Of a stretch of DNA of 37,545 nucleotides, positions 6,191 through 37,545 are shown one piece after another. The stretch lies in NCBI GenBank assembly GCA_017483765.1, contig JAFUVE010000039.1:1-37545 (forward strand), read 5' to 3'. This stretch comes from Bacteroidaceae bacterium. Lineage in GTDB: Bacteria; Bacteroidota; Bacteroidia; Bacteroidales; Bacteroidaceae. The notes beneath the pieces are model-generated. The model worked only from the letters and a program-made list of their open reading frames with translations. It was not told the DNA's origin and did no database searches. The position numbers and the translations under genes are program-made. The number at the start of each line of letters is the position of its first letter. Position 1 is the stretch's first letter.

Positions 6191-6230
6191 TTTGTTTAGA
6201 GTTTAGAGTTGAGGGTTTAGAGTGTAGTAA
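6191..6230. repeat. 7-base-period array upstream of the giant surface protein
   Basis: Units of the type TTTAGAG/TTGAGGG recur every 7 bases. Read on the minus strand (the sense of the downstream gene) a 29-base segment of this array is identical to one directly before the aminotransferase start at 25854. It ends 8 bases before the ATG at 6183. Confidence 0.8.
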
Positions 6231-6640
6231 GCTCAGCAATGGATTGCAGTCGATGTTTTCTTGTGATTTGGCATCCATAAAGCATCCATAAAGCAGTCCC
6301 ACACACACCGCAATGCAGACCTGATTGTGGCAGGTCCGTGTTGGTTTTTGTTGAAATCTTGTCAGAAAATTGGTCTGTTAGCAGATAAGTAGTAAATTGG
6401 TTGTTGTATCGTCAGTCATGCAGATAAGGCTCTCAGCCTTTGCCGTTCCGGCATTCTTCACCGTATTTCTCTTCTTTCCCTGCGTTCGCTACAATTATCG
6501 CAAATCCTCATCCTTATCCCGTAGTCCTTTGATTTTCAGCCGGTTTATTTCATCTTTCGATCCATATTGTCTGTCAAGGCGTTAGGAATACCGCGGGGAC
6601 TCACGCACCCAGTGCGGTATGTTTGTTCTATAATTCCGTG
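6231..6640 (-). other. Probable long 5' leader, no gene seen
   Basis: No supported gene lies between the -7 box at 6641-6648 and the surface protein. If that box is the only promoter, the leader is about 450 bases long. The only structure noted is a tandem of the 11-mer GCATCCATAAA (6271-6292). Short frames here lack homology I recognise. Confidence 0.4.
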
Positions 6641-6648
6641 CAAAGTTA
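6641..6648 (-). promoter_or_regulatory. -7 box of the surface protein gene
   Basis: The minus strand reads TAACTTTGC, a full match to the Bacteroidetes TAnnTTTG -7 box. No well-spaced TTTG -33 box is seen (nearest candidates have spacers of 12 and 24 bases), so this is a moderate call. Confidence 0.55.
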
Positions 6649-6766
6649 CGAATTTTCAGTCAAATTCAGTTACAAATCATTAAAGAATTTTACGTTTTGA
6701 CACAAAATTTTAATCTATTGCATATGTTTGCTTTCAGTTTGTAAAAAAAAGGAAGGAAGAGGATTT

Positions 6767-6819
6767 GGCCGTGCTTCGCCGGCCGGATTTTGCCGCAGAC
6801 AACTGCGGCGTACATGAAA
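6767..6819 (+). repeat. REP-like element, copy 1 (two hairpins)
   Basis: The first hairpin is formed by GGCCG...CGGCC around a TGCTTCGC region; the second is GCCGCAG-ACAA-CTGCGGC (6792-6809), followed by the conserved tail GTACATGAAA. The same order occurs at 8081-8133, and the second hairpin plus tail recurs inverted at 6921-6950. All three copies flank the transposase gene, as expected for a RAYT and its REP sequences. Confidence 0.85.
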
Positions 6820-6920
6820 ACGAACACGGGACGACAAAAGCGAACAGACAGGACAATTATTGAAACTGCTAAATAATGCGATTTCATGTTAAAGCTAAAA
6901 TCAAGAGGATATGCCATCTG

Positions 6921-6950
6921 CTTTCATGTACGCCGCAGTTGTCTGCGGCA
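6921..6950 (-). repeat. REP-like element, copy 2 (inverted, one hairpin)
   Basis: This is the reverse complement of the tail plus second hairpin of copies 1 and 3 (TGCCGCAGACAACTGCGGC, then GTACATGAAAG on the minus strand). The GGCCG hairpin is absent. Facing copy 1, it makes an inverted pair upstream of the RAYT promoter, a BIME-like arrangement. Confidence 0.85.
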
Positions 6951-6967
6951 AAAAAAAAGAAAAGTCC

Positions 6968-6998
6968 TTGAACTTATCAAATTTTTTTATTACATTTG
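6968..6998 (+). promoter_or_regulatory. Promoter of the RAYT gene
   Basis: TTG at 6968-6970 and TACATTTG at 6991-6998 are separated by 20 bases, matching the Bacteroidetes -33/-7 pattern (TTTG, N19-21, TAnnTTTG). The predicted transcript starts about 15-20 bases before the ATG at 7024, supporting that start over the internal ATG at 7141. Confidence 0.7.
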
Positions 6999-7023
6999 CA
7001 AGCCATAAAAAAAGAGAAAAAAA

Positions 7024-8073
7024 ATGGATAAAGAACAGATTAACAGCACAGAAAGCAAGCTTTATCAATCTCCAGAACATACACATCATAGTCCCTGCTC
7101 TCCTCCCCAGAATAAATTCGCAAAAGCCAAGAAACCATCGATGAGAAGGAGAATGTACAATCGTGATTATAGCGGCAAAGGCATATATATGATTACCATT
7201 ACCACCGAACATAGAAATCAAATATTCGGCAGACTTCAATTTGCAGGAGACGCTTCATCGCCTTTCATTGAACATAGTATTGTAGGAAAAATGGTAAGTG
7301 ATGAATGTTTGAACATACACGCACAATGGCCTCAGATAGATATTCAGCTTGTACAAGTCATGCCTGACCACGTACATATACTTATGCAAGTGACAGAACC
7401 ATTGCCCAAACACCTTGGAAAAATCATTGCTTTTTTCATGCTTAAGACAACTCAGAATTATAATAAGCTATGCGGTGTAGACATAGAAAAAGATGGCAGT
7501 CTCAAACTTTGGGAAAAGGGATATCACGACCGAATCATCACAAATACTGAGCAACTTTCAGCTGTCAAGAAATACCTATGGGACAATCCTTTGCGGTTGG
7601 CAATCAAACGGGGACGGCAGGAGCTGTTCAACCAAGTAGGCATTGAAGTATGCGGACATTTCTTTGTCAGCATAGGCAACAGGGAGTTGCTGAACGCAAA
7701 GCGTCTGCTGCAAGTGCAATGCAGCCGCCGTCTGACTGAAGAGGAAATATTGGATAGGGTAAAGAATTTTCTTGATGAAGGGAAACAAGGAACGGTGCTG
7801 GTGTCTCCTTGTATCAGCCCTGGCGAGAAGGCGGTAGCAAGCGCTGCTGTGGACAACGGCATTCCGTTAATTGTGCTGCTCGAAAACGGATTCAGCCAGT
7901 ATTTCAAACCCAGCGGCCGGCATTTCGAGGCCTGTGCGTCAGGAAAATTGCTGATGCTTGCACCGTGGGAGCATCATAACGAGCGACGCACTATAACGAG
8001 AGAGCAATGCCTGCAACTGAACGAAATGGCAAAGGATTTATGCAACGGACAGGCGGACGCAAGCTTCATTTAA
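7024..8073 (+). CDS. REP-associated tyrosine transposase (RAYT) with C-terminal Rossmann/SLOG-like domain, 349 aa
   Basis: Residues about 40-200 are an IS200/TnpA-REP-type Y1 transposase: the HUH motif is H116-V-H118 in MPDHVHILM and the catalytic tyrosine is Y167 in WEKGYHDRII, followed by the conserved YLWDNPLR segment. Such enzymes nick and rejoin single-stranded REP hairpins. The family is usually 150-230 residues; here about 140 more follow (205-345). They contain GTVLVSPCISPGEKAV, then a hydrophobic strand (IPLIVLLENGF) and a GRHFEACASGKLLMLAPWE segment, which looks like a DprA/SLOG nucleotide-binding fold; that is a judgement from pattern, not a search. A 39-residue polar N-terminal extension precedes the core; M40 (7141) is an alternative start. 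Three REP-like elements flank the gene, so it is probably active or recently active in spreading them. Confidence 0.88.
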   Translation: MDKEQINSTESKLYQSPEHTHHSPCSPPQNKFAKAKKPSMRRRMYNRDYSGKGIYMITITTEHRNQIFGRLQFAGDASSPFIEHSIVGKMVSDECLNIHAQWPQIDIQLVQVMPDHVHILMQVTEPLPKHLGKIIAFFMLKTTQNYNKLCGVDIEKDGSLKLWEKGYHDRIITNTEQLSAVKKYLWDNPLRLAIKRGRQELFNQVGIEVCGHFFVSIGNRELLNAKRLLQVQCSRRLTEEEILDRVKNFLDEGKQGTVLVSPCISPGEKAVASAAVDNGIPLIVLLENGFSQYFKPSGRHFEACASGKLLMLAPWEHHNERRTITREQCLQLNEMAKDLCNGQADASFI

Positions 8074-8080
8074 CGATGAG

Positions 8081-8280: not shown

Positions 8281-8295
8281 ATTTAGATATACTGA

Positions 8296-9326: not shown

Positions 9327-9381
9327 TTCGCCGGAATTTCCGGAGATTCCGGACAATCCGGAAATTCCGGACTGTCCAGAC
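9327..9381. repeat. 9-base-period TCCGGA array between rpsB and tsf
   Basis: The word TTCCGG/TCCGGA recurs every 9 bases about six times with variable 3-base fillers (AAT, GAT, CAA, AAT, CTG). TCCGGA is itself a palindrome, so the RNA could pair with itself in several registers. It fills most of the gap between two co-transcribed genes. Confidence 0.85.
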
Positions 9382-9392
9382 TCTGTATCTTA

Positions 9393-10256
9393 TTACTCAG
9401 CAGCCTCTTCAGCAGGTGCCTCAGCAGCAGCCTCAGCAGCAGCCTCAGCTACAGGAGCCTCAGCGGCCTCCTCCTTCTTCTCAGCGCGAGCTCTCGACAC
9501 ACGCTTGCGTGCAGGACGATCCTCAGGAACGTTCTCCTCGCCAGCCTGCTCCATGTCCACGCGCTCAGCCTTGCGCTCCTCGATACCCTCAGCGATGGCA
9601 GCCACGCATGCGTCTACGATCACCTCGATAGACTTTGTAGCGTCGTCGTTTGCAGGAATCACGTAGTCCACGTTAGAAGGGTCGGAGTTGGTGTCCACGA
9701 TGCCGAACACAGGGATACCGAGGCGGTTAGCCTCTTTCACTGCGATGTTCTCCTTCATCACGTCGATTACGAACAAAGCGTAAGGCAGACGCTTCAGGTC
9801 GGCGATAGAACCAAGGTTCTTCTCCAGCTTCTCACGCTTGCGGCGAATCTGGAGGTTCTCACGCTTTGAGAGCTTGTCGTAAGTGCCGTCGGCGAGCATC
9901 TTGTCGATGTTGGCCATCTTCTTCACGGCCTTGCGTATGGTGGGGAAGTTGGTGAGCATACCGCCCGGCCATCGTTCGATGACGTAGGGCATACCAACTG
10001 AAGCAGCTTTCTCAGCCACTACTTCTTTAGCCTGCTTTTTTGTAGCAACAAAAAGGATTTTCTCGCCGTTCTTAGCGATTTGCTTGAGAGCCTCAGCAGC
10101 CTGGTCAATCTTGGCTACGGTTTTGTGGAGGTCGATGATGTGGATACCGTTACGCTCCATGAAGATGTAAGGAGCCATTGCGGGATTCCATTTTCTACGC
10201 AGGTGGCCGAAGTGGCTTCCTGCTGCAAGTAATGTCTCAAATGATGTTCTTGCCAT
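9393..10256 (-). CDS. rpsB: 30S ribosomal protein S2, 287 aa
   Basis: S2 binds 16S rRNA on the small subunit and helps recruit S1. Family signatures are visible: ASFETLLAAGSHFGHLRRKWNP-type N-terminus (residues 3-25), HIIDLHKTV (about 39-47), and the P-x-FGIVDTNSDPSNVDYVIPAND segment (about 182-203). The core is about 235 residues; the rest is an Ala/Glu-rich tail with repeats such as AEAAAEAAAEAPAEE, which is low complexity and probably disordered. It lies between rpsI and tsf on the same strand. A 389-base gap full of 7-base-period arrays separates it from rpsI, much longer than normal inside a ribosomal operon, and I find no promoter box in it. Confidence 0.97.
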   Translation of the reverse strand: MARTSFETLLAAGSHFGHLRRKWNPAMAPYIFMERNGIHIIDLHKTVAKIDQAAEALKQIAKNGEKILFVATKKQAKEVVAEKAASVGMPYVIERWPGGMLTNFPTIRKAVKKMANIDKMLADGTYDKLSKRENLQIRRKREKLEKNLGSIADLKRLPYALFVIDVMKENIAVKEANRLGIPVFGIVDTNSDPSNVDYVIPANDDATKSIEVIVDACVAAIAEGIEERKAERVDMEQAGEENVPEDRPARKRVSRARAEKKEEAAEAPVAEAAAEAAAEAPAEEAAE

Positions 10257-10314
10257 GATAGTTTACTTTCTTTTTAAGTTTTTGTTCAAACCCAGCCGGG
10301 GAGTAACTCAGCGA

Positions 10315-10340
10315 AGTAAAAAGTGAAAAGTGAAAAGTTT
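10315..10340. repeat. 7-base-period array (AGTGAAA type)
   Basis: AGTAAAA, AGTGAAA, AGTGAAA, AGTTTAT follow at 7-base steps within the rpsI-rpsB gap, about 60 bases upstream of the rpsB start. Confidence 0.7.
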
Positions 10341-10381: not shown

Positions 10382-10425
10382 AAATATTAAATTTCAAATC
10401 TCAAATTTCAAATTTCAAATACCCC
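10382..10425. repeat. 7-base-period array (AAATTTC type)
   Basis: AAATATT, AAATTTC, AAATCTC, AAATTTC, AAATTTC, AAATACC: six units at a 7-base step. The same unit type occurs at 28617-28645 and 37517-37545. Confidence 0.85.
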
Positions 10426-10511: not shown

Positions 10512-10562
10512 ATCTCCCGGTTAATTTAATTGAATAATTGTTCAGATTTCAGCTGTTTGTTT

Positions 10563-10643
10563 CAGTTAAGAGTTGTCAGTTGTGAGCTGTCAGTTGTCAG
10601 TAGCCAACGTCTCAACTCTAAACTCTCAACTCTAAACTAAAAA
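10563..10643. repeat. Double 7-base-period array just after rpsI
   Basis: Two blocks adjoin: AGTTGTC-type units (about 10568-10602) and TCTAAAC/TCTCAAC units (about 10610-10640). The second block reaches to within a few bases of the rpsI stop codon. Unit sequence differs between the blocks while the 7-base step is kept. Confidence 0.85.
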
Positions 10644-10645
10644 AA

Positions 10646-11032
10646 TTAACGCTTACTGAACTGGAATCTGCGGCGTGCCTTCGGACGACCCGGCTTCTTA
10701 CGCTCAACAACACGAGAGTCGCGAGTGATGAATCCTGCCTGGCGAAGTGCCTTCTTGTCCTCAGCGTTGATTTTCACGAGTGCGCGGGCGATAGCGAGAC
10801 GCAGTGCCTGTGACTGTCCGGTGTAACCACCACCGAAGAGGTTTACTTTGATGTCGTACTTCTCAGCCACGTCGAGAAGGTTGAGCGGCTGCTTAACGAC
10901 AAACTGGATTAACTCTGATGGGAAATAGTCAGCGAGGTCACGCTTGTTGATAGTGATCTTACCCGTTCCCTCTTTCATATATATACGGGCTACAGCAGCT
11001 TTACGGCGGCCCAATGCATTTATAACTTCCAT
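10646..11032 (-). CDS. rpsI: 30S ribosomal protein S9, 128 aa
   Basis: S9 sits in the head of the 30S subunit and its C-terminal tail reaches the P-site tRNA. The N-terminal ALGRRKAAVARIYM (about residues 6-19), the central NLFGGGYTGQSQALRLAIARAL (about 64-85) and the basic C-terminus KKPGRPKARRRFQFSKR, ending in the conserved Lys-Arg, identify it. The length is typical. It follows rplM by 8 bases, the standard L13-S9 pairing, so the two are certainly co-transcribed. Confidence 0.98.
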   Translation of the reverse strand: MEVINALGRRKAAVARIYMKEGTGKITINKRDLADYFPSELIQFVVKQPLNLLDVAEKYDIKVNLFGGGYTGQSQALRLAIARALVKINAEDKKALRQAGFITRDSRVVERKKPGRPKARRRFQFSKR

Positions 11033-11502: not shown

Positions 11503-11605
11503 TCTTTTTCTGTTTACTTTTTGTTGTTACTAAATTGCTGTCTGTCAATGATTCACGGACCGTGTTCCCGGCTAATAGGATGCACTATCCACACACCAAC
11601 AAGGG

Positions 11606-11623
11606 CACGCTTCGGGGAGCGTG
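11606..11623 (-). other. Hairpin in the rplM leader
   Basis: CACGCT (11606-11611) and AGCGTG (11618-11623) form a 6-bp stem with a 6-base loop just after the predicted transcription start. It could be a simple stabilising structure or a ribosomal-protein target; nothing here distinguishes the two. Confidence 0.45.
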
Positions 11624-11707: not shown

Positions 11708-11762
11708 ACCGGATTTTCTGGAGATTCCGGGGTTTCCGGGATTTCCGGACTTTCCGGGCTTC
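11708..11762. repeat. 9-base-period TCCGG array downstream of the SH3b gene
   Basis: TTCCGG/TCTGG words recur at 9-base steps about six times with fillers of 3 bases. Same class as 9327-9381 and 25011-25080. Confidence 0.85.
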
Positions 11763-15804: not shown

Positions 15805-16992
15805 TTAGTCCTCCTTCACTTTTATGGCACGCTTTGCGCGCTTGTTAATATTGCTCTGAACCACACAGTAGTCAATAAGCGGAGCGAACACGTTCATCAG
15901 CAGGATTGCCAGCATCATGCCCTCCGGATAACCCGGGTTGAGCACACGGATGATAATCGCCATGACGCCGATGAGGAAACCGTAAATCCACTTGCCGCAC
16001 TCTGTACGGGCGGAAGTCACAGGGTCGGTGGCCATAAAGACAGCGCCGAAGCAGAATCCACCAACCGTGAGGTGCTCATACCACTGGAAGTTCTCTGTCA
16101 CCTTGTCCTTGAAGATGAATGCCATGAGCGCACCACCGACGAAGACACTCAGCATCGTCTTCCAGCTTGCCACGCCCGTGATGAGCAGCAGAGCCGCTCC
16201 AAGCGCTATGGCGATGACGCTGGTCTCACCAATGGACCCCGGCATGATACCGGTGATAGTGTCCATAAAGTCAGCAGTCACTGCCACTGGCTTATCTGCC
16301 GTGTTGGCAGCCAGCTCACCAAGCGGTGTAGCCATGGAGTAAGCATCCACATTGCCGCTTACACCTGTGATGCAGTCCATGTAGTTCTGGTTCACCCATA
16401 CCTTGTCGCCCGACATGGTAGAAGGATAAGAGAAAAAGAGGAACGCGCGCGTGACGAGCGCCACGTTGAAGATGTTCATACCGGTTCCGCCGAATATCTC
16501 CTTGGCGAAAATCACTGCGAAGGCAGTTGCTATGGCGATGATCCACAGCGGACAGTTGATTGGCACGATCATCGGAATGAGAATACCGCTGACAAGGAAT
16601 CCCTCATGGATTTCCTCGTTCTTCCACTGTGCCACGGTGAACTCGATTCCGAGTCCGACGAGATAGCTGACCACGATTTTCGGCAGTACGGCAGCCAGGC
16701 CGTAGAAGAAGCTGCTCCAGAAAGCAGGGTCCTGCTCGCCGTTGGCGATATAGTGCCAGTGTCCTACGTTCCACATTCCGAAGAGCAGTGCCGGGGTCAG
16801 TGCGATCACAACAAACGACATGATGCGCTTGGAGTCGATGGCATCATGGATATGAGCTCCTTTGGCCTTGGCCGTGTCGTTGGGGACGTACATGAACGTC
16901 TCGAATCCGTCGAACACCGACCGGAAAGCATGGAGCTTCCCGCCTTCCTGAAACGAAGGCTTGATCTTGTCGAGAAATTTTCTTAAACCCAT
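15805..16992 (-). CDS. nqrB: Na+-translocating NADH:quinone reductase subunit B, 395 aa
   Basis: The largest membrane subunit, which houses riboflavin and a covalent FMN and forms the Na+ path. About ten hydrophobic helices are visible from residue 56 on. The FMN site is S219-M-A-T222 within VDAYSMATPLGEL, a slight variant (Met for Gly) of the usual S-G-A-T. GGTGMNIFNVALVTRAFLFF (about 168-187) is a conserved segment. The N-terminal cytoplasmic part (1-55) is typical. The gene is separated from nqrA by a 131-base gap that contains a 7-base-period array. Confidence 0.96.
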   Translation of the reverse strand: MGLRKFLDKIKPSFQEGGKLHAFRSVFDGFETFMYVPNDTAKAKGAHIHDAIDSKRIMSFVVIALTPALLFGMWNVGHWHYIANGEQDPAFWSSFFYGLAAVLPKIVVSYLVGLGIEFTVAQWKNEEIHEGFLVSGILIPMIVPINCPLWIIAIATAFAVIFAKEIFGGTGMNIFNVALVTRAFLFFSYPSTMSGDKVWVNQNYMDCITGVSGNVDAYSMATPLGELAANTADKPVAVTADFMDTITGIMPGSIGETSVIAIALGAALLLITGVASWKTMLSVFVGGALMAFIFKDKVTENFQWYEHLTVGGFCFGAVFMATDPVTSARTECGKWIYGFLIGVMAIIIRVLNPGYPEGMMLAILLMNVFAPLIDYCVVQSNINKRAKRAIKVKED

Positions 16993-16999: not shown

Positions 17000-17036
17000 A
17001 TTTACGATTTACAAATTTACGATTTACGATTTATTT
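17000..17036. repeat. 7-base-period array (TTTACGA type) between nqrA and nqrB
   Basis: TTTACGA/TTTACAA units recur at 7-8-base steps directly upstream of the nqrB start (ATG at 16992). Same class as the other A/T-rich arrays. Confidence 0.75.
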
Positions 17037-19118: not shown

Positions 19119-19157
19119 TTATCAGTTTTCAGTTATCAGTTTTCAGTTATCAGCTTT
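19111..19157. repeat. 7-base-period array (GTTTTCA/GTTATCA alternating)
   Basis: GTTTTCA and GTTATCA alternate three times, then GCTTTTT. The array lies between the stop codon of the DUF805 gene and the broken 5' end of the HAD fragment, overlapping the first residues of the latter. Confidence 0.85.
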
Positions 19158-25002: not shown

Positions 25003-25010
25003 CCATAACA

Positions 25011-25080
25011 TTCCGGAATCTCCGGACAATCTGGAATCTCCAGACCTCCGGAATTTCCGGACAAGCCGGATAATCCGGAA
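25011..25080. repeat. 9-base-period TCCGGA array between iorA and iorB
   Basis: TCCGGAATC, TCCGGACAA, TCTGGAATC and further variants recur at 9-base steps (with one or two slips) and fill nearly the whole gap. Same class as 9327-9381 and 11708-11762, here on the other coding strand. Confidence 0.85.
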
Positions 25081-25098: not shown

Positions 25099-25671
25099 AT
25101 GAAATCAGACATCATATTATGCGGCGTGGGCGGCCAAGGCATACTCTCTATCGCCACGGTCATCGGAGAAGCCGCCATGAACGAGAACCTATATATCAAG
25201 CAGGCAGAGGTGCACGGCATGTCGCAGCGAGGAGGTGACGTGCAGAGCAACCTGCGCATCTCATCACAGCCCATCAACAGCGACCTCATCGCCAAAGGCG
25301 GCGCCGACGTCATCATATCCATGGAGCCGATGGAGGCTCTCCGCTATCTCCCCTATCTGAGCAAGCAGGGATGGATCATCACGTCGTCAACACCGTTCGT
25401 CAACATCCCGAACTACCCCGACATGGACAAGATCAACGCCGACCTCGACCAGCTGCAAAACGTCATCAAGATTGACATCGAGAGCATGGCCAAGGAGAAC
25501 AACATACCCCGCTCGGCCAACATCATCCTGCTCGGCGCAGCCCAGAAAGCACTCGGCATCGAATACCACAAGCTGGAAGACGCCATACGAAGCATTTTCG
25601 GCCGCAAGGGCGAAGCGGTGGTGGAAGCCAACATCAAGGCGCTGGCACTGGGAAAAGCCATGCAGAAATAA
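25099..25671 (+). CDS. iorB: Indolepyruvate:ferredoxin oxidoreductase beta subunit, 190 aa
   Basis: The gamma-type partner of IorA. The N-terminal nucleotide-like motif DIILCGVGGQGILSIATVIGEA (residues 4-25), EVHGMSQRGGDVQSNLRIS (about 37-55) and the MEPMEALRYLPYL segment (about 75-87) are standard for 2-oxoacid:ferredoxin oxidoreductase gamma domains. The length is normal. It is transcribed with iorA; the intervening array is not a terminator. Downstream lies a 182-base gap of 7-base-period sequence before the aminotransferase. Confidence 0.94.
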   Translation: MKSDIILCGVGGQGILSIATVIGEAAMNENLYIKQAEVHGMSQRGGDVQSNLRISSQPINSDLIAKGGADVIISMEPMEALRYLPYLSKQGWIITSSTPFVNIPNYPDMDKINADLDQLQNVIKIDIESMAKENNIPRSANIILLGAAQKALGIEYHKLEDAIRSIFGRKGEAVVEANIKALALGKAMQK

Positions 25672-25678
25672 CTTTCTT

Positions 25679-25755
25679 AGTTTAATGTGGAATGTTGAAA
25701 GTTTAATGAGGATTGTTTATTGTTGAAAGTTTATAGTTTAATGTTGAATGTGGAA
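25679..25755. repeat. 7-base-period array (AATGTTG/AAAGTTT type) after iorB
   Basis: AATGTGG, AATGTTG, AAAGTTT, AATGAGG, ATTGTTT, ATTGTTG, AAAGTTT and so on follow at a 7-base step over about 75 bases. It closely resembles the array at 29968-30027, and both lead into the same 44-base dispersed repeat. Confidence 0.85.
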
Positions 25756-25796
25756 ATCCAACCTATCAACCACTTCATCCGCATGGCACTCTAAAC
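25753..25796. repeat. 44-base dispersed repeat, copy 1
   Basis: This segment (from GAAATCCAACCTATCAACCA to GGCACTCTAAAC) matches 30033-30076 at about 40 of 44 positions. It contains TCCGCATGGC, the core later repeated in the 50/51-base tandem unit. Confidence 0.85.
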
Positions 25797-25850
25797 CCTC
25801 AACTCTAAACCCTCAACTCTAAACCCTCAACTCTAAACTCTAAACTCAAT
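25790..25850. repeat. 7-base-period array before the aminotransferase
   Basis: CTCTAAA and CCCTCAA alternate at 7-base steps and end three bases before ATG 25854. A 29-base part is identical, in the same orientation to the downstream gene, to the array before the giant surface protein (6191-6230). Confidence 0.9.
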
Positions 25851-25853
25851 AAA

Positions 25854-27161
25854 ATGAAAACCCCTATAGACAAGGCATTGGTGGACGGAATCATCAGCGA
25901 GCTGGGCATCCAGGACTTCGCAAAAGCCACCATACGAGAGGTGAAACTGACTGCGTCGATTGCTGAGAAGAAGTCAGGCGTGGAGTTCATCAAGATGGAG
26001 ATGGGCATACCCGGACTTCCCGCGTCGAAATACGGCGTGGAAGCACAAATCAAGGCACTCGAGAGCGGAATTGCCAACCTCTACCCCAACATACAAGGAC
26101 TGCCAGAACTCAAGCAGGAGGCCTCACGCTTCGTGAAGGCATTCATCGGACTGGACATCAATCCCGAGGGATGCGTGCCCGTGAGCGGAAGCATGCAGGG
26201 CACCTTTGCATCGTTCCTCACCTGCTCGCAGTGCGACAAGAAGAAGGACACCGTACTGTTCATCGACCCGGGATTCCCCGTGCAGAAGATGCAGCTGCAG
26301 GTGATGGGCGTGAAATACGAGACCTTCGACGTATATCATTTCCGCGGAGAAAAACTCGGTCCGAAGCTGGAGAGCTACCTCCAGAACGGCAACATCTGCG
26401 CCATCATCTACTCCAACCCCAACAACCCGTCGTGGATTTGCATGACGGAGGACGAGCTGCAGACCATCGGAACGCTGGCCACCAAGTATGACGCCATCGT
26501 CATGGAAGACCTCGCATACTTCGCCATGGACTTCCGCAAAGACCTCAGCACGCCGTTCCAACCCCCGTTCCAGGCCACTGTGGGAAGATACACCGACAAC
26601 TACATCCTGCTTATCAGCGGCTCGAAGGCATTCAGCTATGCAGGAGAGCGCATCGGAGTGACTTGCATCAGCGACAAGCTCTTCCACCGCCACTTCAAGG
26701 ACCTGGCTGACCGCTACGAAGGACTGCCTTTCGGTCCGGTGTTCTCGACACGTATGCTCTACGCGCTGTCGTCTGGCACCAGCCACTCGGCACAGTTCGC
26801 CATGGCTGCCATGCTCAAGGCTGCCTCCGACGGCATATACGACTTCAGGAGCGACATCAGCGAGTATGCCCGGCGGGCACATAAGCTCAAGGAGATTTTC
26901 TGCCGGCATGGATTCCACGTCGTCTACGACAAGGACCTCGACCAGCCCATCGCCGACGGATTCTATTTCACCATCGGATTCCCGGGCATGACCAGCGGAG
27001 AGCTGGCACACGAGCTCATGTACTACGGAGTGAGCGCCATCAGCCTCGTCACCACAGGCTCAGAGCAGCAAGGGCTGCGCGTATGCACGTCCTTCATCGA
27101 AGACCACCAGTACGCCCAACTGGAAGAGAGAATGAAAATATTTGAGGAGAATTATAAATAA
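25854..27161 (+). CDS. PLP-dependent class I/II aminotransferase, 435 aa
   Basis: The fold-type I aminotransferase pattern is clear: GCVPVSGSMQGTF cofactor-phosphate region (about residues 106-118), YSNPNNPSW (about 189-197), MEDLAYFAMD with the conserved Asp/Tyr pair (about 220-229), and SGSKAFSYAGERIG whose Lys (about residue 261) should bind pyridoxal phosphate. A C-terminal Arg for the carboxylate lies in GLRVCTSF. Position between iorB and two paaK genes suggests that it transaminates aromatic amino acids and arylpyruvates; substrate choice cannot be read from motifs alone, and an aspartate-aminotransferase-type activity is possible. It ends 14 bases before the first paaK. Confidence 0.9.
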   Translation: MKTPIDKALVDGIISELGIQDFAKATIREVKLTASIAEKKSGVEFIKMEMGIPGLPASKYGVEAQIKALESGIANLYPNIQGLPELKQEASRFVKAFIGLDINPEGCVPVSGSMQGTFASFLTCSQCDKKKDTVLFIDPGFPVQKMQLQVMGVKYETFDVYHFRGEKLGPKLESYLQNGNICAIIYSNPNNPSWICMTEDELQTIGTLATKYDAIVMEDLAYFAMDFRKDLSTPFQPPFQATVGRYTDNYILLISGSKAFSYAGERIGVTCISDKLFHRHFKDLADRYEGLPFGPVFSTRMLYALSSGTSHSAQFAMAAMLKAASDGIYDFRSDISEYARRAHKLKEIFCRHGFHVVYDKDLDQPIADGFYFTIGFPGMTSGELAHELMYYGVSAISLVTTGSEQQGLRVCTSFIEDHQYAQLEERMKIFEENYK

Positions 27162-27175: not shown

Positions 27176-28483
27176 ATGATCTACAATCCCGAAATGGAAT
27201 GCATGTCCCGCGAGGATATGCGCAAGCTGCAAAGCGAGAGACTGATAAAGACAGTAAAAAACTGCTACGAGAACGTCCCGTTCTATAAGAACAAGATGGA
27301 CCGTCTTGGACTTAAGCCGGAGGACATCAAGAGCATCGACGACATCGTGAAACTGCCATTTACAACCAAGCACGACCTGCGCGACGAGTACCCCTTCGGA
27401 CTCCAGGCAGTACCGATGACCGACGTAAGAAGAATACACGCCTCATCCGGAACCACAGGAAAACCGGTGGTCGACACCTATACTGACAACGACATCGACA
27501 TGTGGTCAGAAGGTGTGGCACGAGTGATGAGCTGTGCCAACGTAGGCAAAGGCGACATTGTACAGGTGTCCTACGGCTACGGACTTTTCACCGGCGGACT
27601 TGGCGCACATGACGGTGCATCTAAACTGGGAGCTGTGCAGCTGCCCACCTCAGCAGGAAACTCTGAGAAACAAATCATGCTCATGCAGGACTTCGGATCA
27701 ACCGTCCTGGCATGTACGCCGTCCTATGCACTCCACCTGGCCGAGGTGATTGAGCGCAGCGACAAGGTGGACATCAACAAGATGAAACTGCGCGCCGGAT
27801 TCTTCGGCGCTGAGCCATGGACTGAAGGAATGCGCAAAGAGCTGGAGACAAAACTGCACATCAAGGCATACGACATCTACGGACTGACCGAGATGTGCGG
27901 ACCAGGTGTGGGAGGCGAATGTGAGGAGCAGAACGGAACCCACCTGTGGGAAGATATGTTCTACCCCGAAATCATCAATCCCGACACACTCGAGCCATGC
28001 GCGCCAGGAGAGTTCGGAGAGCTCGTGTTCACATCTCTCTGCAAGGAGGCCATGCCTATCATACGCTACCGCACACGCGACCTCACACGGCTCATCTATG
28101 ACCAGTGTCCATGCGGACGTACGGCTGTCAGGATGGACAAGATTCTCGGACGAAGCGACGACATGCTCATCGTTCGCGGTGTCAACGTCTTCCCTTCCAC
28201 TATCGAAGCCATCCTCACGGAGTTCCCGGCGTTCACACCGCAGTATTTCATCACGGTGGACCGCAAGAACAACGAAGATATGTTCGACCTCGACGTGGAG
28301 CTGCGCAACGAGTACTTCTCACCCAACCCGTCGAAGCAGATGCCATTCATCAAGCCGCTCTACGACCGCATCGTCAGCGTGGTGGGAATCAAGCCCAACA
28401 TCCACATCAAAGAGCCTAACAGCATCGCACGCTCCATGGGCAAGGCAAAACACGTCAACGACAAACGTAACTTTCACGGATAA
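27176..28483 (+). CDS. paaK: Phenylacetate-CoA ligase, first paralogue, 435 aa
   Basis: An ANL-family ligase joining an arylacetate to CoA with ATP (AMP-forming). The P-loop motif is S90-S-G-T-T-G-K-P, then YGYGLFTGGLG (about 133-143), the A5 motif YGLTEMCGPGV (235-245) and YRTRDLTRL with the catalytic-domain hinge region, then RSDDMLIVRGVNVFP typical of PaaK. The short (about 435) length is normal for PaaK. It begins after a short A-rich gap behind the aminotransferase and clearly shares its transcript. A second, related copy follows. Confidence 0.94.
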   Translation: MIYNPEMECMSREDMRKLQSERLIKTVKNCYENVPFYKNKMDRLGLKPEDIKSIDDIVKLPFTTKHDLRDEYPFGLQAVPMTDVRRIHASSGTTGKPVVDTYTDNDIDMWSEGVARVMSCANVGKGDIVQVSYGYGLFTGGLGAHDGASKLGAVQLPTSAGNSEKQIMLMQDFGSTVLACTPSYALHLAEVIERSDKVDINKMKLRAGFFGAEPWTEGMRKELETKLHIKAYDIYGLTEMCGPGVGGECEEQNGTHLWEDMFYPEIINPDTLEPCAPGEFGELVFTSLCKEAMPIIRYRTRDLTRLIYDQCPCGRTAVRMDKILGRSDDMLIVRGVNVFPSTIEAILTEFPAFTPQYFITVDRKNNEDMFDLDVELRNEYFSPNPSKQMPFIKPLYDRIVSVVGIKPNIHIKEPNSIARSMGKAKHVNDKRNFHG

Positions 28484-28488
28484 GGAAA

Positions 28489-28518
28489 TTTTGAGGTTTG
28501 AACTTTGAGATTTGAACT
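28489..28518. repeat. 7-base-period array (TTTGAAC/TTTGAGG type) after paaK 1
   Basis: TTTGAGG, TTTGAAC, TTTGAGA, TTTGAAC at 7-base steps directly past the paaK stop. Bases 28519-28616, up to the next array, show nothing else. Confidence 0.75.
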
Positions 28519-28616
28519 GTATAGTCACCATGAATATCGATGGCCAGACTTTTTAATCTCATCGTATTAAATCAAAACTCAGTAATCCTTTCCATGAATT
28601 ATAAGTAATCCTAAAT

Positions 28617-28645
28617 ATCAAAGTTCAAATTTCAAATTTCAAAGT
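28617..28645. repeat. 7-base-period array (AAATTTC type) before paaK 2
   Basis: CAAAGTT, CAAATTT, CAAATTT, CAAAGTA at 7-base steps, ending 5 bases before ATG 28650. Confidence 0.8.
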
Positions 28646-28649: not shown

Positions 28650-29963
28650 ATGGACTACAAATCTGAATACCTGCATCCGCAATACGAGGCACTGAGCCGG
28701 GAAGAGCTGCAGAAACTGCAGCTGGAGCGACTGCAGGCCACCGTCCAGCATTGCATGAACTCACCGTTCTACAAAGCACGGTTCGAACAATGCGGACTCA
28801 AACCGGAGGACATCCAGAGCCTGGACGACATCCGCAAAATTCCTTTCACTACCAAGCAGGACCTGCGCGACACCTACCCGTTCGGCATGGCCAGCGTGCC
28901 ACTGACCAAGTGCGTGCGTCTGCACTCATCGTCGGGCACCACGGGCAACCCCACCGTCATCCTGCACACACAGAAAGACCTTGACGAATGGGCCAACGCC
29001 GTGGCACGGTGCCTCTGGATGGTTGGTCTGCGTCCCGACGACGTGTTCCAGAACTCATCTGGATACGGAATGTTCACCGGCGGACTGGGATTCCAGTATG
29101 GAGCCGAGCGACTGGGCGCGCTCACCGTGCCTGCAGCTGCAGGAAACTCACTCCGCCAGATCAAGTTCATCAAGGACTTCGGCACCACGGCCATCCACGC
29201 CGTTCCAAGCTACGTCACCCGTCTCTACGAGGTGATGCAACAGGAGGGAGTGGACCCTCGGCGCGACACCAAGTTGAAAGTGCTGGCCATCGGAGCTGAG
29301 CCCCACTCTGAAGAACAGCGCAAGCGCATCGAGGACATGCTCGGCGTAAAGGCGTACAACTCATTCGGAATGAGCGAGATGTGCGGACCAGGAGTAGGAT
29401 TTGAATGTAAAGAACAGAATGGTCTGCACTTCTGGGAAGACTACTACATCGTGGAAATCGTGGACCCGGAGACACTCGAGCCTGTGCCCGACGGAGAAAT
29501 CGGCGAGCTCGTGCTCACCACGCTCAACCGCGAGGCCATGCCGCTGCTGCGCTACCGCACACGCGACCTCACACGAGTGCTCGGACGCACTTGTCCCTGC
29601 GGCCGAAACCACATTCGCCTCGACCGCATGAAGGGACGCAGCGACGACATGATGGTGCTCCGCGGCGTCAACATCTTCCCGATCCAGATTGAGAAGATAC
29701 TCATGCAGTTCGATGAGCTGGCAAGCAACTACCTCATCACACTCACCACCGACGACGACAACGACAACATGACCGTGGAAGTGGAGCTCGAGAAGTTCGA
29801 CGACGACTACGCAAAACTCCAAAAGTTGGAGAAAGAGATCCGTCGACGTCTGAAAGACGAGATTCTGCTCACCCCGTTCGTCAAGCTCGTGCCGAAGGGA
29901 ACGCTCCCTGTCAGCGAGGGCAAGGCCGTCAGAGTGGTCGACAAGCGAAAAGTCTATCAATAA
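28650..29963 (+). CDS. paaK: Phenylacetate-CoA ligase, second paralogue, 437 aa
   Basis: The same domain order as the preceding ligase: SSSGTTGNP P-loop (residues 93-101), SSGYGMFTGGLGF (about 135-147), SFGMSEMCGPGV A5 motif (about 238-249), YRTRDLTRVLG and RSDDMMVLRGVNIFP. The two proteins agree closely over most motifs but differ in the substrate-side segments (for example GYGLFTGGLGAHDG against GYGMFTGGLGFQYG), which may mean different aryl acids, such as phenylacetate against indoleacetate or 4-hydroxyphenylacetate. Lys near the C-terminus (GTLPVSEGKAVR) is the expected adenylation lysine. The ACT gene follows after a 330-base repeat-rich gap. Confidence 0.94.
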   Translation: MDYKSEYLHPQYEALSREELQKLQLERLQATVQHCMNSPFYKARFEQCGLKPEDIQSLDDIRKIPFTTKQDLRDTYPFGMASVPLTKCVRLHSSSGTTGNPTVILHTQKDLDEWANAVARCLWMVGLRPDDVFQNSSGYGMFTGGLGFQYGAERLGALTVPAAAGNSLRQIKFIKDFGTTAIHAVPSYVTRLYEVMQQEGVDPRRDTKLKVLAIGAEPHSEEQRKRIEDMLGVKAYNSFGMSEMCGPGVGFECKEQNGLHFWEDYYIVEIVDPETLEPVPDGEIGELVLTTLNREAMPLLRYRTRDLTRVLGRTCPCGRNHIRLDRMKGRSDDMMVLRGVNIFPIQIEKILMQFDELASNYLITLTTDDDNDNMTVEVELEKFDDDYAKLQKLEKEIRRRLKDEILLTPFVKLVPKGTLPVSEGKAVRVVDKRKVYQ

Positions 29964-29967
29964 ATAG

Positions 29968-30027
29968 GTGAAAGATGAAAGATGAAAGATGAAAGTTTAA
30001 AGTTGAAAGTTTAAAGTTGAATGTGGT
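29968..30027. repeat. 7-base-period array (AAAGATG then AAAGTTT type) after paaK 2
   Basis: AAAGATG occurs three times, followed by AAAGTTT and AAAGTTG alternating, then AATGTGG, all at a 7-base step. It resembles 25679-25755. Confidence 0.85.
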
Positions 30028-30032
30028 ATGAT

Positions 30033-30076
30033 GATATCCAACCTATCAACCATCCCATCCGCATGGCACTCTAAAC
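30033..30076. repeat. 44-base dispersed repeat, copy 2
   Basis: About 40 of 44 positions match 25753-25796 in the same orientation. It leads directly into the tandem 50/51-base units. Confidence 0.85.
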
Positions 30077-30090
30077 TTTAAACTAAAAAA

Positions 30091-30293
30091 GGAGTCCGCA
30101 TGGCTCTTTAAACTTTAAACATTCAACTTTAAACTAAAAAAGGGGTCCGCATGGCTCTTTAAACTTTAAACATTAAACTTTAAACTAAAAAAGGGTTCGC
30201 ATGGCTCTTTAAACTTTAAACATTAAACTTTAAACTAAAAAAGGGGTCCGCATGGCTCTTTAAACTTTAAACACTAAACTTTAAACTAAAAAT
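30091..30293. repeat. 50/51-base tandem repeat, four units, before the ACT gene
   Basis: Units begin near 30091, 30142, 30193 and 30243. Each has the core GGGGTCCGCATGGCTCTTT (one unit GGGTTCGC) followed by AAACTTT/AAACATT words at a 7-base step and an A run. The ATG of the ACT gene falls where the fifth core would start. Spacing is 51, 51 and 50 bases. Confidence 0.95.
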
Positions 30294-30722
30294 ATGACCA
30301 TTCATCAGATTTCTATTTTCATAGAAAACCGTTCGGGCACCATGATCAAGGTGCTGAACGTACTGAAGCAGGCGGACGTCGACATCATCGCGTCCACAGT
30401 GGCCGACACGGCAGAATACGGAATCTACCGAATCATCTGCTCCGACCCGAAGAAAGCACATGAGCAGCTGAAGAACGCTGGCATACAGTGCACAATCTCC
30501 GATGTCTTCGCACTCGAGCTCGACAACCTTCCTGGCAAGGCAGCCGACGCAGTCGCCATCTTCAGCGAAGCTGGTATCAGCATCTCCTACCTCTACTCCT
30601 TCCTGCTCAACGGCAAGGGAATCCTGATTTTCCGCACCGACGACAACGAGAAGGCAAAAGCAACCATCAAAGCAAACGGTCTGAAGTACATCACTGAGCC
30701 GAAACTGCCAACCATGGCATAA
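30294..30722 (+). CDS. Tandem ACT-domain protein, 142 aa
   Basis: Two ACT folds: about residues 2-65 (IHQISIFIENRSGTMIKVLNVL) and about 70-136 (ALELDNLPGKAADAVAIFSEAG). The G-x-M/L turn after the first strand of each, where amino acids usually bind, is present. There is no catalytic domain. Stand-alone ACT proteins beside paaK/iorAB are common in Bacteroidetes and archaea and are thought to sense an amino acid; an aromatic ligand is inferred from the context. It is the last gene of the cluster and is followed by a strong terminator. Confidence 0.88.
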   Translation: MTIHQISIFIENRSGTMIKVLNVLKQADVDIIASTVADTAEYGIYRIICSDPKKAHEQLKNAGIQCTISDVFALELDNLPGKAADAVAIFSEAGISISYLYSFLLNGKGILIFRTDDNEKAKATIKANGLKYITEPKLPTMA

Positions 30723-35214: not shown

Positions 35215-35225
35215 ATTTTCGTGGG

Positions 35226-35624
35226 CTACAACTCTTCCAGGCTTTTCTTCATCCTGTAGGCCGAAGAATTGAGAATGGCGAGCAGCTTGCCTTCCTCGCT
35301 GGTGATGCGCACCTCGCAATAAGGGATTTTGCGGTGGTCCACCACCTCGCGTGCCTCAGCAAAGACCCAACCCGACTGCACGTTGCTCACGTACGTCATG
35401 TTGGAGGAGATGGCCACCGTCACTTGCCCGTGGCTGTTCACCGCAGCGGCGAAAGCCAGGTCAGCCAACGTGAAGAGCGCACCGCCCTGACAATAGCCGG
35501 TGGCGTTGAGATGCTCAGGCGTGACAAGCATGCGGGCCTTGGCATAGCCCTCAGAGATTTCCACCAGTTCGGCCCCGATCATTGCGGCAAACCGGTCGTT
35601 CACGAAAAATTCTTTTAAATCCAT
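35226..35624 (-). CDS. PaaI-type hotdog thioesterase, 132 aa
   Basis: A single hotdog fold that hydrolyses acyl- or aryl-CoA. The active-site stretch is N40-ATGYCQGGALFTLADLAFA, with N40, the G-G pair and D55 as in PaaI enzymes; the usual HGG is QGG here, which occurs in the family. The length (about 130-140) is typical. Together with the two paaK genes 6 kb away it suggests that stalled aryl-CoA is recycled, but a broader acyl-CoA clean-up role is equally possible. Its upstream gap holds a 9-base-period array of about 110 bases. Confidence 0.87.
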   Translation of the reverse strand: MDLKEFFVNDRFAAMIGAELVEISEGYAKARMLVTPEHLNATGYCQGGALFTLADLAFAAAVNSHGQVTVAISSNMTYVSNVQSGWVFAEAREVVDHRKIPYCEVRITSEEGKLLAILNSSAYRMKKSLEEL

Positions 35625-35642
35625 TGTCGCTTGATTTTAGTT

Positions 35643-35756
35643 GTCGGACAGGTCGGACTTGTCTGACTGGTCCGACTTGTCTGACTGGTCTGACTTGTCC
35701 GACTTGTCCGACTTGTCTGACTCGTCCGACTGGTCTGACTTGTCCGACCTGTCCGA
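35643..35756. repeat. 9-base-period TCyGACTkG array
   Basis: About 12-13 units of nine bases (TCCGACTTG, TCTGACTGG, TCCGACTTG, ...) fill the gap between the symporter stop and the thioesterase start. The unit differs from the TCCGGAnnn type elsewhere but the 9-base step is the same. Confidence 0.92.
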
Positions 35757-35766
35757 TAAAAAATTA

Positions 35767-37317
35767 TCACATCTTCTTGCTGTAGCACTTGAAGATGTTG
35801 TCAACGTATGACTGCCGCATCTTCGGAGTGAAGAGGCTGACGAGAATCACAATCGGGAATCCACCCACCATCGCGATGGCACCGCAGTTAATCGGGTTGG
35901 CAATGGCGTTGTTCGTCAGCATATTGACCACCGTAAGTCCCACACCCCATGCGAAGCAGGCCCAAACGGCGGAGGTAGTCACTTTCTTCCAGTACAGACC
36001 CACGAGGAACGGTGCGAGGAAGGCACCGGCCAGCGCACCCCACGATATACCCATCAACTGAGCGATGAACGTAGGCGGGTTGAGCGCGATCATGAGCGCG
36101 ATGACGATGAAGAAGACGATGAGCACGCGCATGACGATGACCTTGCGCTTCTCCACCTTCTCCGACACCATGTCGTCGATCGTGCCCTCCTCCACCTCAC
36201 CGGGCAGCGACTTCTTGTCGCGGTAGATGAGGTCGAGTGTCATGGTGGAGGCAGATGTCAGCACGAGCGAAGCCAACGTGGACATGGATGCCGACAGCAC
36301 AAGCAGCACCACAAGGGCGATGAGGATGTCAGGCAATCCTGACAACATGGACGGCACGACGGAGTCGAAGTCCGACGGCACCATCACACCGTTTTTCTCC
36401 ACAAACTGCAATGAGCCGGAGAACAGACGGCCGAATCCACCAAGGAAATAGCAACCGCCCGCTACAATGAAGGCGAAGATGGTGGAAATGATGGTTCCGC
36501 GCTTGATGGCCTTCTCGTCGGTGATGGAATAGAATTTGCCCACCATCTGGGGCAGTCCCCATGTGCCGAGCGAAGTCAGCACGACGACACCCAGCAGATT
36601 CCACGGGTCTGGTCCGAAGAGACTGCCGAACTGCCCGTTGACCGCAGGATTGGCATCGCTGGGCACTGCCGCGATTTTCTCCATGGCAGAAGAGAGTCCG
36701 CCTTGCGTGTTGAGCACTGCGGCGATGATAGTGACGATGCCGAAGAGCATGATGATGCCTTGGATGAAGTCGTTGAGCGCAGTGGCCTTATAGCCGCCAA
36801 GAATCACATAGACGGCAGTCAGGAGCGACATGATGATCACACAATATTCATAAGGAATACCGAATCCCATCTCGAAAAGCTTGGATATGCCTTTGTAGAC
36901 ACCGGCCGTGTACGGGATAAGGAAGACGAAGGCGATGATAGACGCCGCGATACGCAGCCCCTGGTTATTGTAGCGTGTGCCGAAGAAGTCGGGCATGGTG
37001 CGCGATTCGATATGCTGAGTCATCAGCTTTGTGCGGCGGCCCAGGATGATCCAGGCCAACAGCGACCCGATGATAGCGTTGCCGATGCCGATCCACGACG
37101 ATGAAAGACCGTATTTCCAGCCAAACTGACCTGCATAGCCCACGAACACGACGGCAGAGAAATAGCTGGTGCCGTAAGCGAAGGCAGTGAGCCAAGGACC
37201 CACAGACCGTCCGCCGAGCACAAATCCGTCAACACTCTTGGCCTGCTTGCGGGAATATATTCCCACATAAACGGTGACTGCCAGGAAAATGACAGTCAAT
37301 AATATCTTGATAAACAT
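35767..37317 (-). CDS. Sodium:solute symporter (SSS family), 516 aa
   Basis: An inner-membrane cotransporter using the Na+ gradient. About 13 hydrophobic helices are seen. GFVLGGRSVGPWLTAFAYGTSYFSAVVFVG (about residues 31-60) is the N-terminal core that begins the LeuT-like fold, with GGYKATALNDFIQGIIM (about 174-190) being the SSS signature. LSASMSTLASLVLTSASTMTLDL (about 342-364) is the conserved helix around the second Na+ site. The substrate cannot be told from the sequence; proline, pantothenate, sialic acid or sugars are all family substrates. A short 7-base-period array lies just upstream of the ATG; no promoter box was found. Confidence 0.9.
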   Translation of the reverse strand: MFIKILLTVIFLAVTVYVGIYSRKQAKSVDGFVLGGRSVGPWLTAFAYGTSYFSAVVFVGYAGQFGWKYGLSSSWIGIGNAIIGSLLAWIILGRRTKLMTQHIESRTMPDFFGTRYNNQGLRIAASIIAFVFLIPYTAGVYKGISKLFEMGFGIPYEYCVIIMSLLTAVYVILGGYKATALNDFIQGIIMLFGIVTIIAAVLNTQGGLSSAMEKIAAVPSDANPAVNGQFGSLFGPDPWNLLGVVVLTSLGTWGLPQMVGKFYSITDEKAIKRGTIISTIFAFIVAGGCYFLGGFGRLFSGSLQFVEKNGVMVPSDFDSVVPSMLSGLPDILIALVVLLVLSASMSTLASLVLTSASTMTLDLIYRDKKSLPGEVEEGTIDDMVSEKVEKRKVIVMRVLIVFFIVIALMIALNPPTFIAQLMGISWGALAGAFLAPFLVGLYWKKVTTSAVWACFAWGVGLTVVNMLTNNAIANPINCGAIAMVGGFPIVILVSLFTPKMRQSYVDNIFKCYSKKM

Positions 37318-37322
37318 ATTAC

Positions 37323-37400
37323 TTAGTTTTCAGTTTTTAGTTTTCTGTTTTCAGTAAGTTACTCAATTTTACAGTTTTCAGTTTTTAGTTTTCAGTCTTC
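37323..37400. repeat. 7-base-period array (GTTTTCA/GTTTTTA type) before the symporter
   Basis: Two blocks of GTTTTCA/GTTTTTA/GTCTTCA units at a 7-base step are separated by a short GTTACTCA segment. Its near end is about 6 bases from the symporter ATG. Same unit family as 19111-19157. Confidence 0.85.
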
Positions 37401-37516
37401 AGTGAGTTACTCCAGAAGGGCTACAATACAGGTACCTTTTAAACTTAAGCATGATAAAAAAGAATTTCTGGAATCCCCTTATTCATCAAAGTATGTATCA
37501 TATCCATAGCAGGGTA

Positions 37517-37545
37517 ACTCTAAACTTCAAATTTCAAATTTCAAA
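37517..37545. repeat. 7-base-period array at the window edge
   Basis: CTCTAAA, CTTCAAA, TTTCAAA, TTTCAAA follow at a 7-base step and run to the end of the window. Bases 37401-37516 contain nothing else recognised. Confidence 0.8.

Follow-up and report, generated by a model that had tools for sequence, protein, structure and literature searches.

The window analysed here is a complete contig of 37,545 nucleotides (JAFUVE010000039.1) from the genome of a Bacteroidaceae bacterium (GCA_017483765.1; G000, hereafter its own genome), an assembly of 3.13 Mb in 105 contigs with an estimated completeness of 69.9%. The gaps between its genes carry short A/T-rich tandem arrays that step by seven bases (Table 1). 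The original prediction, made from the letters alone, counted at least twelve such gaps, and this is borne out: Tandem Repeats Finder (TRF, minimum score 30) places period-7 or period-14 arrays at, or no more than 15 bp from, all 14 coordinates that it listed and adds a further array at 10610-10638. The array listed at 30091 corresponds to 30106-30135, with copies to 30287, inside a 51-bp repeat beginning at 30072. In keeping with the statement that no array falls inside an intact gene, the arrays lie between the main open reading frames (ORFs, taken as longest open frames), though certain short opposite-strand ORFs overlap some of them; the sole period-7 row within a main ORF has 2.7 copies, at 22130-22148.

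An excess at lag 7 over shuffled sequence, as the original prediction expected, is present and is absent from Escherichia coli. Across 21 window gaps (5661 bp) compared with 30 dinucleotide shuffles, the autocorrelation z-scores are 10.4 at lag 7, 12.4 at lag 14, 6.5 at lag 21 and 6.8 at lag 9, with all remaining lags from 2 to 24 at or below 3.9. In 769 kb of the own genome (98,165 bp intergenic) we counted 116 period-7 arrays, against 1 after a single shuffle, while 150 kb of E. coli K-12 contain none and give a lag-7 z of -0.4. Small controls from zero-hit Bacteroidia (6 stretches, 3,192 bp intergenic) and Parabacteroides (2,863 bp) likewise show no lag-7 excess.

Table 1. Period-7 arrays and associated centres in the window; "arm" marks an array read as one side of a putative two-armed element.
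Feature	Position	Strand	Basis	Context
Single arm, CTCTAAA/CCCTCAA on minus	6194-6227	-	TRF	3' end 10 bp before start of ORF 583-6183(-)
Array, CACTTTT on minus (AAGTGAA on plus)	10314-10338	-	TRF	389-bp gap, ORF 9393-10256(-) to rpsI 10646-11032(-)
Array, AAATTTC/AAATCTC	10389-10420	+	TRF	same 389-bp gap
Array, GTTGTCA (C-strand TGACAAC on minus)	10562-10601	-	TRF	same 389-bp gap
Array, TCTAAAC/TCTCAAC	10610-10638	+	TRF	3' end 7 bp from rpsI stop
Single arm, CGTAAAT	17000-17033	-	TRF	3' end 7 bp before start of NQR2/RnfD-family gene 15805-16992(-)
Array, CTGATAA alternating with CTGAAAA	19111-19157	-	TRF	extends into a short YqeG-like open frame
Left arm (G-strand on plus) of two-armed element	25680-25755	-	TRF	8 bp past stop of indolepyruvate oxidoreductase beta gene 25099-25671
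Centre; CCAACCTATCAACCA in common with 29969 element; terminates in head motif TCCGCATGGC (25778-25787)	25756-25787	+	sequence comparison	
Right arm, CTCTAAA/CCCTCAA	25788-25847	+	TRF	ends 6 bp before start of aminotransferase gene 25854-27161
Left arm, TTTGAGA/TTTGAAC	28490-28518	-	TRF	6 bp past stop of AMP-binding-enzyme gene 27176-28483
Right arm, AAATTTC/AAAGTTC	28613-28643	+	TRF	ends 6 bp before start of AMP-binding-enzyme gene 28650-29963
Left arm, TGAAAGT	29969-30021	-	TRF	28 bp (4 units) missing in L027
Centre; core in common with 25756-25787; TCCGCATGGC at 30058-30067	30022-30071	+	sequence comparison	
Right arm, expanded: 4.4 copies of 51-bp unit (head + CTTTAAA array)	30072-30292	+	TRF	ends just before ORF 30294-30722
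Single arm, CTGAAAA/CTAAAAA	37325-37403	-	TRF	3' end 7 bp before start of sodium:solute symporter gene 35767-37317(-)
Array, AAATTTC, truncated by contig end	37522-37545	+	TRF	

The units are not arbitrary. In 180 oriented arrays from the own genome and from G012, a relative whose stretches are about 87-99% identical in DNA to their own-genome counterparts, grouping by eye yields a few recurring word families: CTCTAAA/CTCTCAA; CTTTAAA/CTTTCAA/CATTAAA; CTGAAAA/CTGATAA/CTAAAAA; TAAATCG/TAAATAG; AAATTTC/AAACCTC; ATTCTTC; and CACTTTT. Short head motifs are enriched in the 5' flank (GCATGGCT 16 observed vs 0.7 expected, CCGCATGG 21 vs 1.2, GAGTAACT 12 vs 0.6) and precede a minority of arrays, those of the GCATGGCT kind 29 of the 180 and those of the CCGCATGG kind 25. 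The motif TCCGCATGGC is frequent in the own genome (91 copies) and G012 (75), against 8 to 19 copies in each of 11 other searched genomes of the genus. Requiring a head at a fixed phase proved too strict as a search pattern, and Rfam at gathering thresholds (window, L107, L111, L113 and L116) returned no match in the arrays.

Comparison with relatives, mostly metagenome-assembled genomes (MAGs), used samples of differing kinds. The own sample comprises the window, 20 stretches of which 3 lie on contigs chosen for hits, and a further 20 that all lie on large hit-bearing contigs; the G012 sample comprises 20 stretches, of which C128 and C154 were chosen for hits and the others by contig number. 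Stretches of G026, G032, G022 and G160 were picked at period-7 hits, those of G005, G061, G179, G180 and G181 were drawn blind, and period-8 hits guided the choice in G127 (10 of 10), G185 (6 of 6) and G178 (14 of 20, on contigs with hits). Array density is biased by this hit-guided sampling.

The arrays are oriented with respect to genes. Each array was oriented by its C-bearing strand and scored by whichever of its two ends, and only that one, came within 12 bp of a gene edge; arrays close to both edges or to neither count for neither side, and arrays with more than 40% ORF overlap, no gene on one side or tied base counts are excluded. Over 11 sets, the 3' end of the C-strand rather than its 5' end lies at the gene edge in 131:41 cases for period 7 and 39:7 for period 8, whereas the near-palindromic period-9 units, which serve as an internal control, give 17:18. 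The period-7 polarity appears at both kinds of edge (stops 70:19, starts 61:22) and in individual genomes (own 65:12, G012 23:4, G181 7:0, G178 4:0, G179 8:0, G185 7:2), and the period-8 polarity is strong in G178 (17:1), G179 (21:0) and G185 (17:0). Array-free edges in the own genome have an A+C fraction of 0.581 at starts and 0.473, no excess, at stops; base composition accounts for part of the start-side polarity and not for the stop side. Three-frame stop codons as the selected property were rejected: own stop-edge arrays have all-frame stops confined to the sense strand in 21 cases against 3, start edges give just 11:7, the same test is not significant elsewhere (G012 6:1 at stops and 4:3 at starts; other loci 12:6 and 8:4), and the TAAATCG family at stops runs counter to the idea.

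In four relatives the polarity resolves into a paired layout. Many gaps of G178, G179, G185 and G181 run from a stop codon through a G-strand array, a centre and a C-strand array to a start codon, and the order G-arm to C-arm outnumbers the reverse by 14:1, 21:0, 10:2 and 5:0, respectively (pooled 50:3). Arms of the same gap share 5-mers beyond arms of different gaps in G179 (0.553 vs 0.369, reached by 0 of 2000 permutations) and in G181 (13 of 2000), and marginally in G178 (70 of 2000). The centres resemble one another above the shuffled 95th percentile in G179 (19 of 20), G178 (7 of 10) and G181 (4 of 6), in a comparison limited to centres of 15-60 bp, which leaves out 5 of 15 in G178, 2 of 22 in G179, 3 of 9 in G185, 0 of 6 in G181 and 6 of 14 in the own genome; the best partner of a G179 centre has the same orientation in 11 cases and the inverted one in 9. 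Predicted RNA folding of co-directional two-armed gaps is strong in these three genomes (median z -7.2 in G178, n=11; -6.5 in G179, n=14; -7.3 in G181, n=3) and weaker in G185 (-4.7, n=9) and the own genome (-3.7, n=6), these z-scores being rough, as the shuffle permutes doublets. The window gap between the two AMP-binding-enzyme genes, with arms on both sides, has a predicted fold of -34.0 kcal/mol. In L111, L114, L124, L153, L198 and at the end of L027, AAATTTC-type arrays flank another dispersed sequence, some 65 bp long (GCAAGC, then AAGCTTGCTT-like, then CATGTCAAT).

Orthologous junctions show that the arrays come with additional DNA. The junction set comprises 80 named loci and the window, with 29 co-directional junctions represented in at least 4 loci, 17 of which have arrays in some loci; the window and L027 are near one species, and certain protein clusters merge paralogues. 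Array-bearing gaps are longer than the array-free median of their own junction in 41 of 42 cases (medians 119 vs 20 bp). The window gap 25672-25853 (182 bp), for example, stands against a 4-bp overlap of the flanking genes in L028, and the junction of gap 29964-30293 has arrays in 9 of 35 loci, of period 7 in some and period 8 in others.

Between close relatives the arrays can change by whole units. Alignments show single-unit indels within arrays together with larger segmental duplications of head plus array, and L027, a record from another MAG with 94.6-98.9% DNA identity to the window, carries at the 29969 element a left arm shorter by 28 bp (4 units) and a right arm with other words and no 51-bp expansion; its copy of the 166-bp gap at 28484 is identical. 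The array-length comparison that the original prediction proposed came out divided, with whole-unit indels of 7 and 28 bp inside arrays and mixed net differences between gaps. Among the 29 orthologous gaps compared there are 12 in which at least one of the two genomes has a period-7 array, and these differ by 0 in 1 case, by 7 bp in 3 and by other amounts in 8; among the 17 gaps lacking a period-7 array, 12 differ by at most 3 bp and the rest by 8, 24, 226, 427 and 1698 bp.

Taken together, gene-edge polarity, paired inverted order in four relatives, conserved centres in three, extra gap length at orthologous junctions and whole-unit indels in arrays of close relatives lead us to think it reasonably probable that the period-7 arrays are arms, here mostly lone remaining arms, of inverted-repeat elements dispersed between genes. 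When complete, such an element would run from gene end through G-strand array, short centre and C-strand array to the start of the next gene. It would insert or be copied at junctions of neighbouring genes, where no protein is broken; slippage and hairpin template switching may then let the arms grow, shrink and re-match, such that the period is kept while the letters drift, and single arms would be what remains of elements. In RNA the arms may pair as a hairpin between stop and next start, the C arm often ending 4-8 bases before the start codon; if the hairpin has a function, it would be to uncouple the two genes. By default we regard the element as selfish or near-neutral.

Several observations weigh against this reading. 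Period-7 polarity is not seen in G026 (3:3), G032 (5:6) and G022 (2:4), named loci beyond L027 and L028 give only 20:11 (p 0.15), the 11 sets without the own genome and G012 give 43:25 (p 0.04), and arrays of period 10-26 are mildly polar as well (30:13). In the own genome single arms prevail, and arm order there and in G012 is 13:6 (p 0.17); arm word sharing is not significant in these two (481 of 2000 permutations) or in G185 (297 of 2000). Inverted pairs as the rule in the own genome were accordingly rejected, and since neither order nor word sharing is significant there, the element reading for the window's own genome leans on its relatives. Centre homology is 0 of 6 in G185 and weak in the own genome (3 of 8). 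Fresh copies are hardly seen, since a partner matching at 85% identity across 80% of the length exists for just 3 of 63 elements. Eight of the 12 array-bearing orthologous gaps differ by non-unit amounts (9, 30, 31, 73, 89, 96, 109 and 206 bp), inspection of one junction by eye gave no clear target duplication, and no mover was identified in a search confined to PF01797. The excerpts of MacGregor 2015 (PMC4679880) describe Microcystis TAACTGA sets with mixed orientations.

Plain replication slippage, by which heptamers would arise and grow in place at a length of about 7 nt that suits the polymerase, with genes excluding them and nothing inserted (the polymerase argument being that of Mrazek 2007 as relayed in PMC4679880), is the alternative that survives best, and we consider it unlikely. 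The whole-unit indels and the dominance of single arms in the window's genome speak for it, as does the report that in most genomes heptanucleotides outnumber all other long simple repeats (PMC4679880, in the excerpts available). It does not predict polarity, the inverted order of the relatives, conserved centres or genomes that prefer period 8. The original prediction had offered two readings, a common process that generates the arrays or selection acting on spacing: the whole-unit steps and the one dominant period per genome agree with this, and edge polarity, 5' heads on a minority of arrays, inverted arms around conserved centres in relatives and extra junction length form a context beyond pure slippage or spacing.

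A second alternative holds that the words are cis-regulatory sites bound by a post-transcriptional regulator beside start codons, as MacGregor 2015 (excerpts) has it for TAACTGA, with the spacing under selection. The array at 19111-19157 has a unit of this type, lone TAACTGA copies alternating with AAACTGA (adjacent copies occur elsewhere in the own genome, e.g. L120 15171), and 54 own and G012 arrays have the 3' end no more than 30 bp from a start codon, 32 of them stopping 4-8 bp short of that codon. A regulator at starts does not account for equal polarity at stop codons, close relatives carry different words at the same junction, and one array pattern is found in only 27 of 61 relatives; we judge this explanation quite improbable. 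A megablast comparison of a TAACTGA array with plasmid records, run with the low-complexity filter on, gave no match.

The window itself holds a gene at 7024-8073 for a Y1 transposase resembling the REP-associated tyrosine transposases (RAYTs), flanked on both sides by GGCCGTGCTTCGCCGGCC and GCCGCAGACAACTGCGGC. That the arrays are REPIN-like elements moved by such an enzyme has in its favour this gene, which matches Y1_Tnp above the cut-off (REP_Tyr_transpos at 54.3 bits, under the cut-off of 80), and the hairpin-like sequences repeated on both of its sides. The own genome and G012 have two PF01797 matches each. No PF01797 match is found in G178, G181 or G185, G179 has one below the cut-off, and G004 and G006 (MAGs, ~81% complete) have array hits and no match. 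Arms that vary around conserved centres are moreover the reverse of REPINs. As three element-rich genomes lack a family match, the window's RAYT-like gene is not needed; a RAYT as required mover was rejected, and the REPIN-like reading as a whole is very unlikely. The genome behind L028 (G182) is probably the same as G005, the two having Y1_Tnp at an identical place and score. An artefact arising from the simple way in which ORFs were called, from base composition or from metagenome assembly, to which longest-frame ORFs, mostly MAG sources and the A-rich array-free start edges would lend themselves, is just as hard to credit, given an arm order independent of start codons, stop edges without background bias, the identical gap in L027 from another MAG and the single array left after shuffling.

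The period behaves as a preference of the genome. The original prediction of a constant period with a changing unit stands in that one period dominates across unrelated units in each genome, and falls in that this period need not be 7. Period-7 to period-8 array counts are 133:27 in the own genome, 53:6 in G012, 24:7 in G026, 26:12 in G032 and 22:22 in G185, and they lean to 8 in G127 (8:15), G179 (20:39) and G178 (13:39; Fisher p <1e-5 against the own genome for the three), with the ratios of G127, G185 and G178 biased by hit-guided choice. Without such choice the blind G179 stretches give 19:30 and the unchosen own stretches with the window 57:15; the ratio is 1:3 on six G178 contigs that were not listed for hits, and 0:8 and 1:9 at loci L038 and L059, to which a protein match led. 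The word AAAC recurs at spacing 7 in 48 places of the whole own genome and at spacing 8 in none, against 334 hits at spacing 8 in G178 and 576 in G179, where spacing 8 only was scanned. A class-wide scan of 119 genomes with this kind of test (one word, spacings 7 and 8 only) finds spacing-7 hits in 38 and spacing-8 hits in 21. The period is thus neither constant nor exclusive. In G119, period-8 arrays with AAACGGTA-like words were noted in several places.

A second class of intergenic arrays has period 9 and near-palindromic cores (TCCGGA and GTCYGAC in the window, TCTAGA in other stretches). In the window these lie at 9331-9371, 11709-11758, 25008-25079 and 35641-35756, in the same kind of gap as the period-7 arrays, and the own sample holds 55 of them against 133 of period 7. 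Their words reshuffle between close relatives, at 35641 almost without change of length.

Parts of this anatomy are already on record, and the comparisons that follow are with excerpts of the published texts. Rehm 2015 (PMC4692102) describes GGGAATC heptamer repeats in Xanthomonas and GGGGA(C/T)T in Nostoc, likewise intergenic and of a length that varies between species at kept sites, with 70 and 75 pairs of neighbouring opposite-strand arrays, regarded as inverted repeats of stem-loop potential, in two Xanthomonas genomes. The two-armed layout is thus already published for another phylum and unit, and recurs here in relatives (50 vs 3 gaps in one order) and less distinctly in the own genome with G012 (13 and 6). 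Those repeats differ in being G-rich, quadruplex-forming, of one unit type and of period 7, with few inverted pairs in Nostoc; most words of the window contain no GGG, which is confined to variants, for example GTTGAGG where the next base is G. Conserved centres, gene-edge polarity and period-8 genomes, seen here, do not appear in the excerpts on the Xanthomonas and Nostoc repeats. In the main genome of PMC4679880 most TAACTGA direct repeats directly precede start codons, and in Flexibacter litoralis there is one reversed case following a stop codon, a placement that fits the polarity found here; they also show 7-nt indels between Cyanothece strains, and at two Bacteroidetes sites the gaps of relatives are shorter and free of repeats. 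That study followed one unit, whereas the present arrays span numerous word families and both periods, 7 and 8, with two arms, centres and polarity at both edges. Mrazek 2007, as cited in PMC4679880 and PMC4692102, found 7-bp units to be the most abundant long simple sequence repeats in most genomes; the present arrays share tandem 7-bp units above chance, and arms, centres and polarity are not part of those accounts as excerpted.

Among mobile elements, REPINs (PMC3116915, in part) are likewise inverted hairpin doublets with singlets as remains, extragenic and in genome-specific families, and the doublet trait is matched by a fold z of about -7 in the relatives and a weaker -3.7 in 6 own gaps. 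REPINs have conserved ends and a variable spacer, whereas here the arms vary and the centres are conserved in G178, G179 and G181; their transposase family is missing from G178, G181 and G185. The BrickBuilt miniature inverted-repeat transposable element (MITE) of Porphyromonas gingivalis (PMC4596501, in part) is also intergenic and joins a tandem array to small inverted-repeat ends, yet its unit is 23 nt long and forms a single array, at a distance of 49-591 nt from genes, while here units of 7-8 bp form the arms themselves, often a few bp away. Of the traits of MITEs, terminal inverted repeats are found in the four relatives and are not significant in the own genome with G012, and occupied versus empty orthologous sites are seen in the longer array-bearing gaps (41 of 42) and in the contrast with L028.

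Literature searches returned no title or abstract on A/T-rich tandem-armed inverted elements. Not met in the excerpts compared or in the titles and abstracts searched were degenerate A/T-rich words whose period, 7 or 8, depends on the genome, the conserved centres, the polarity at both edges and the test at orthologous junctions. Tentatively, and with more doubt than confidence, we suggest an amplifying class of hairpin elements in Bacteroidales and relatives, with degenerate tandem-array arms of unit 7 or 8 by genome, conserved centres, junction insertion, no recognised transposase and arms re-matched by template switching; the Xanthomonas pairs and the cyanobacterial and Beggiatoaceae arrays would then be related forms of it or leftover single arms. 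Several phyla have yielded reports of intergenic heptamer arrays that do not explain their placement, and if such arrays are arms of inserted hairpins, these scattered reports would gain a common anatomy, and questions about the mover, the choice of unit length 7 or 8 and the effect of the hairpin on the output of the downstream gene would become testable.

The arrays mark gene junctions as places of rapid turnover even within the window's ribosomal-protein cluster, where the genes for EF-Ts, S9 and L13 (8296-11502) enclose the array-packed 389-bp gap. Rfam at gathering thresholds assigns minus-strand positions 11550-11623 to an L13-Bacteroidia leader and reports a cobalamin riboswitch in L116. 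In the stretch 18850-19157 the edge of the CTGAAAA array is also where an open frame of 89 codons begins, with no ATG, GTG or TTG close to that point; this frame resembles the start of what we take to be a YqeG-like phosphatase, and a 33-bp tandem repeat lies just past its end.

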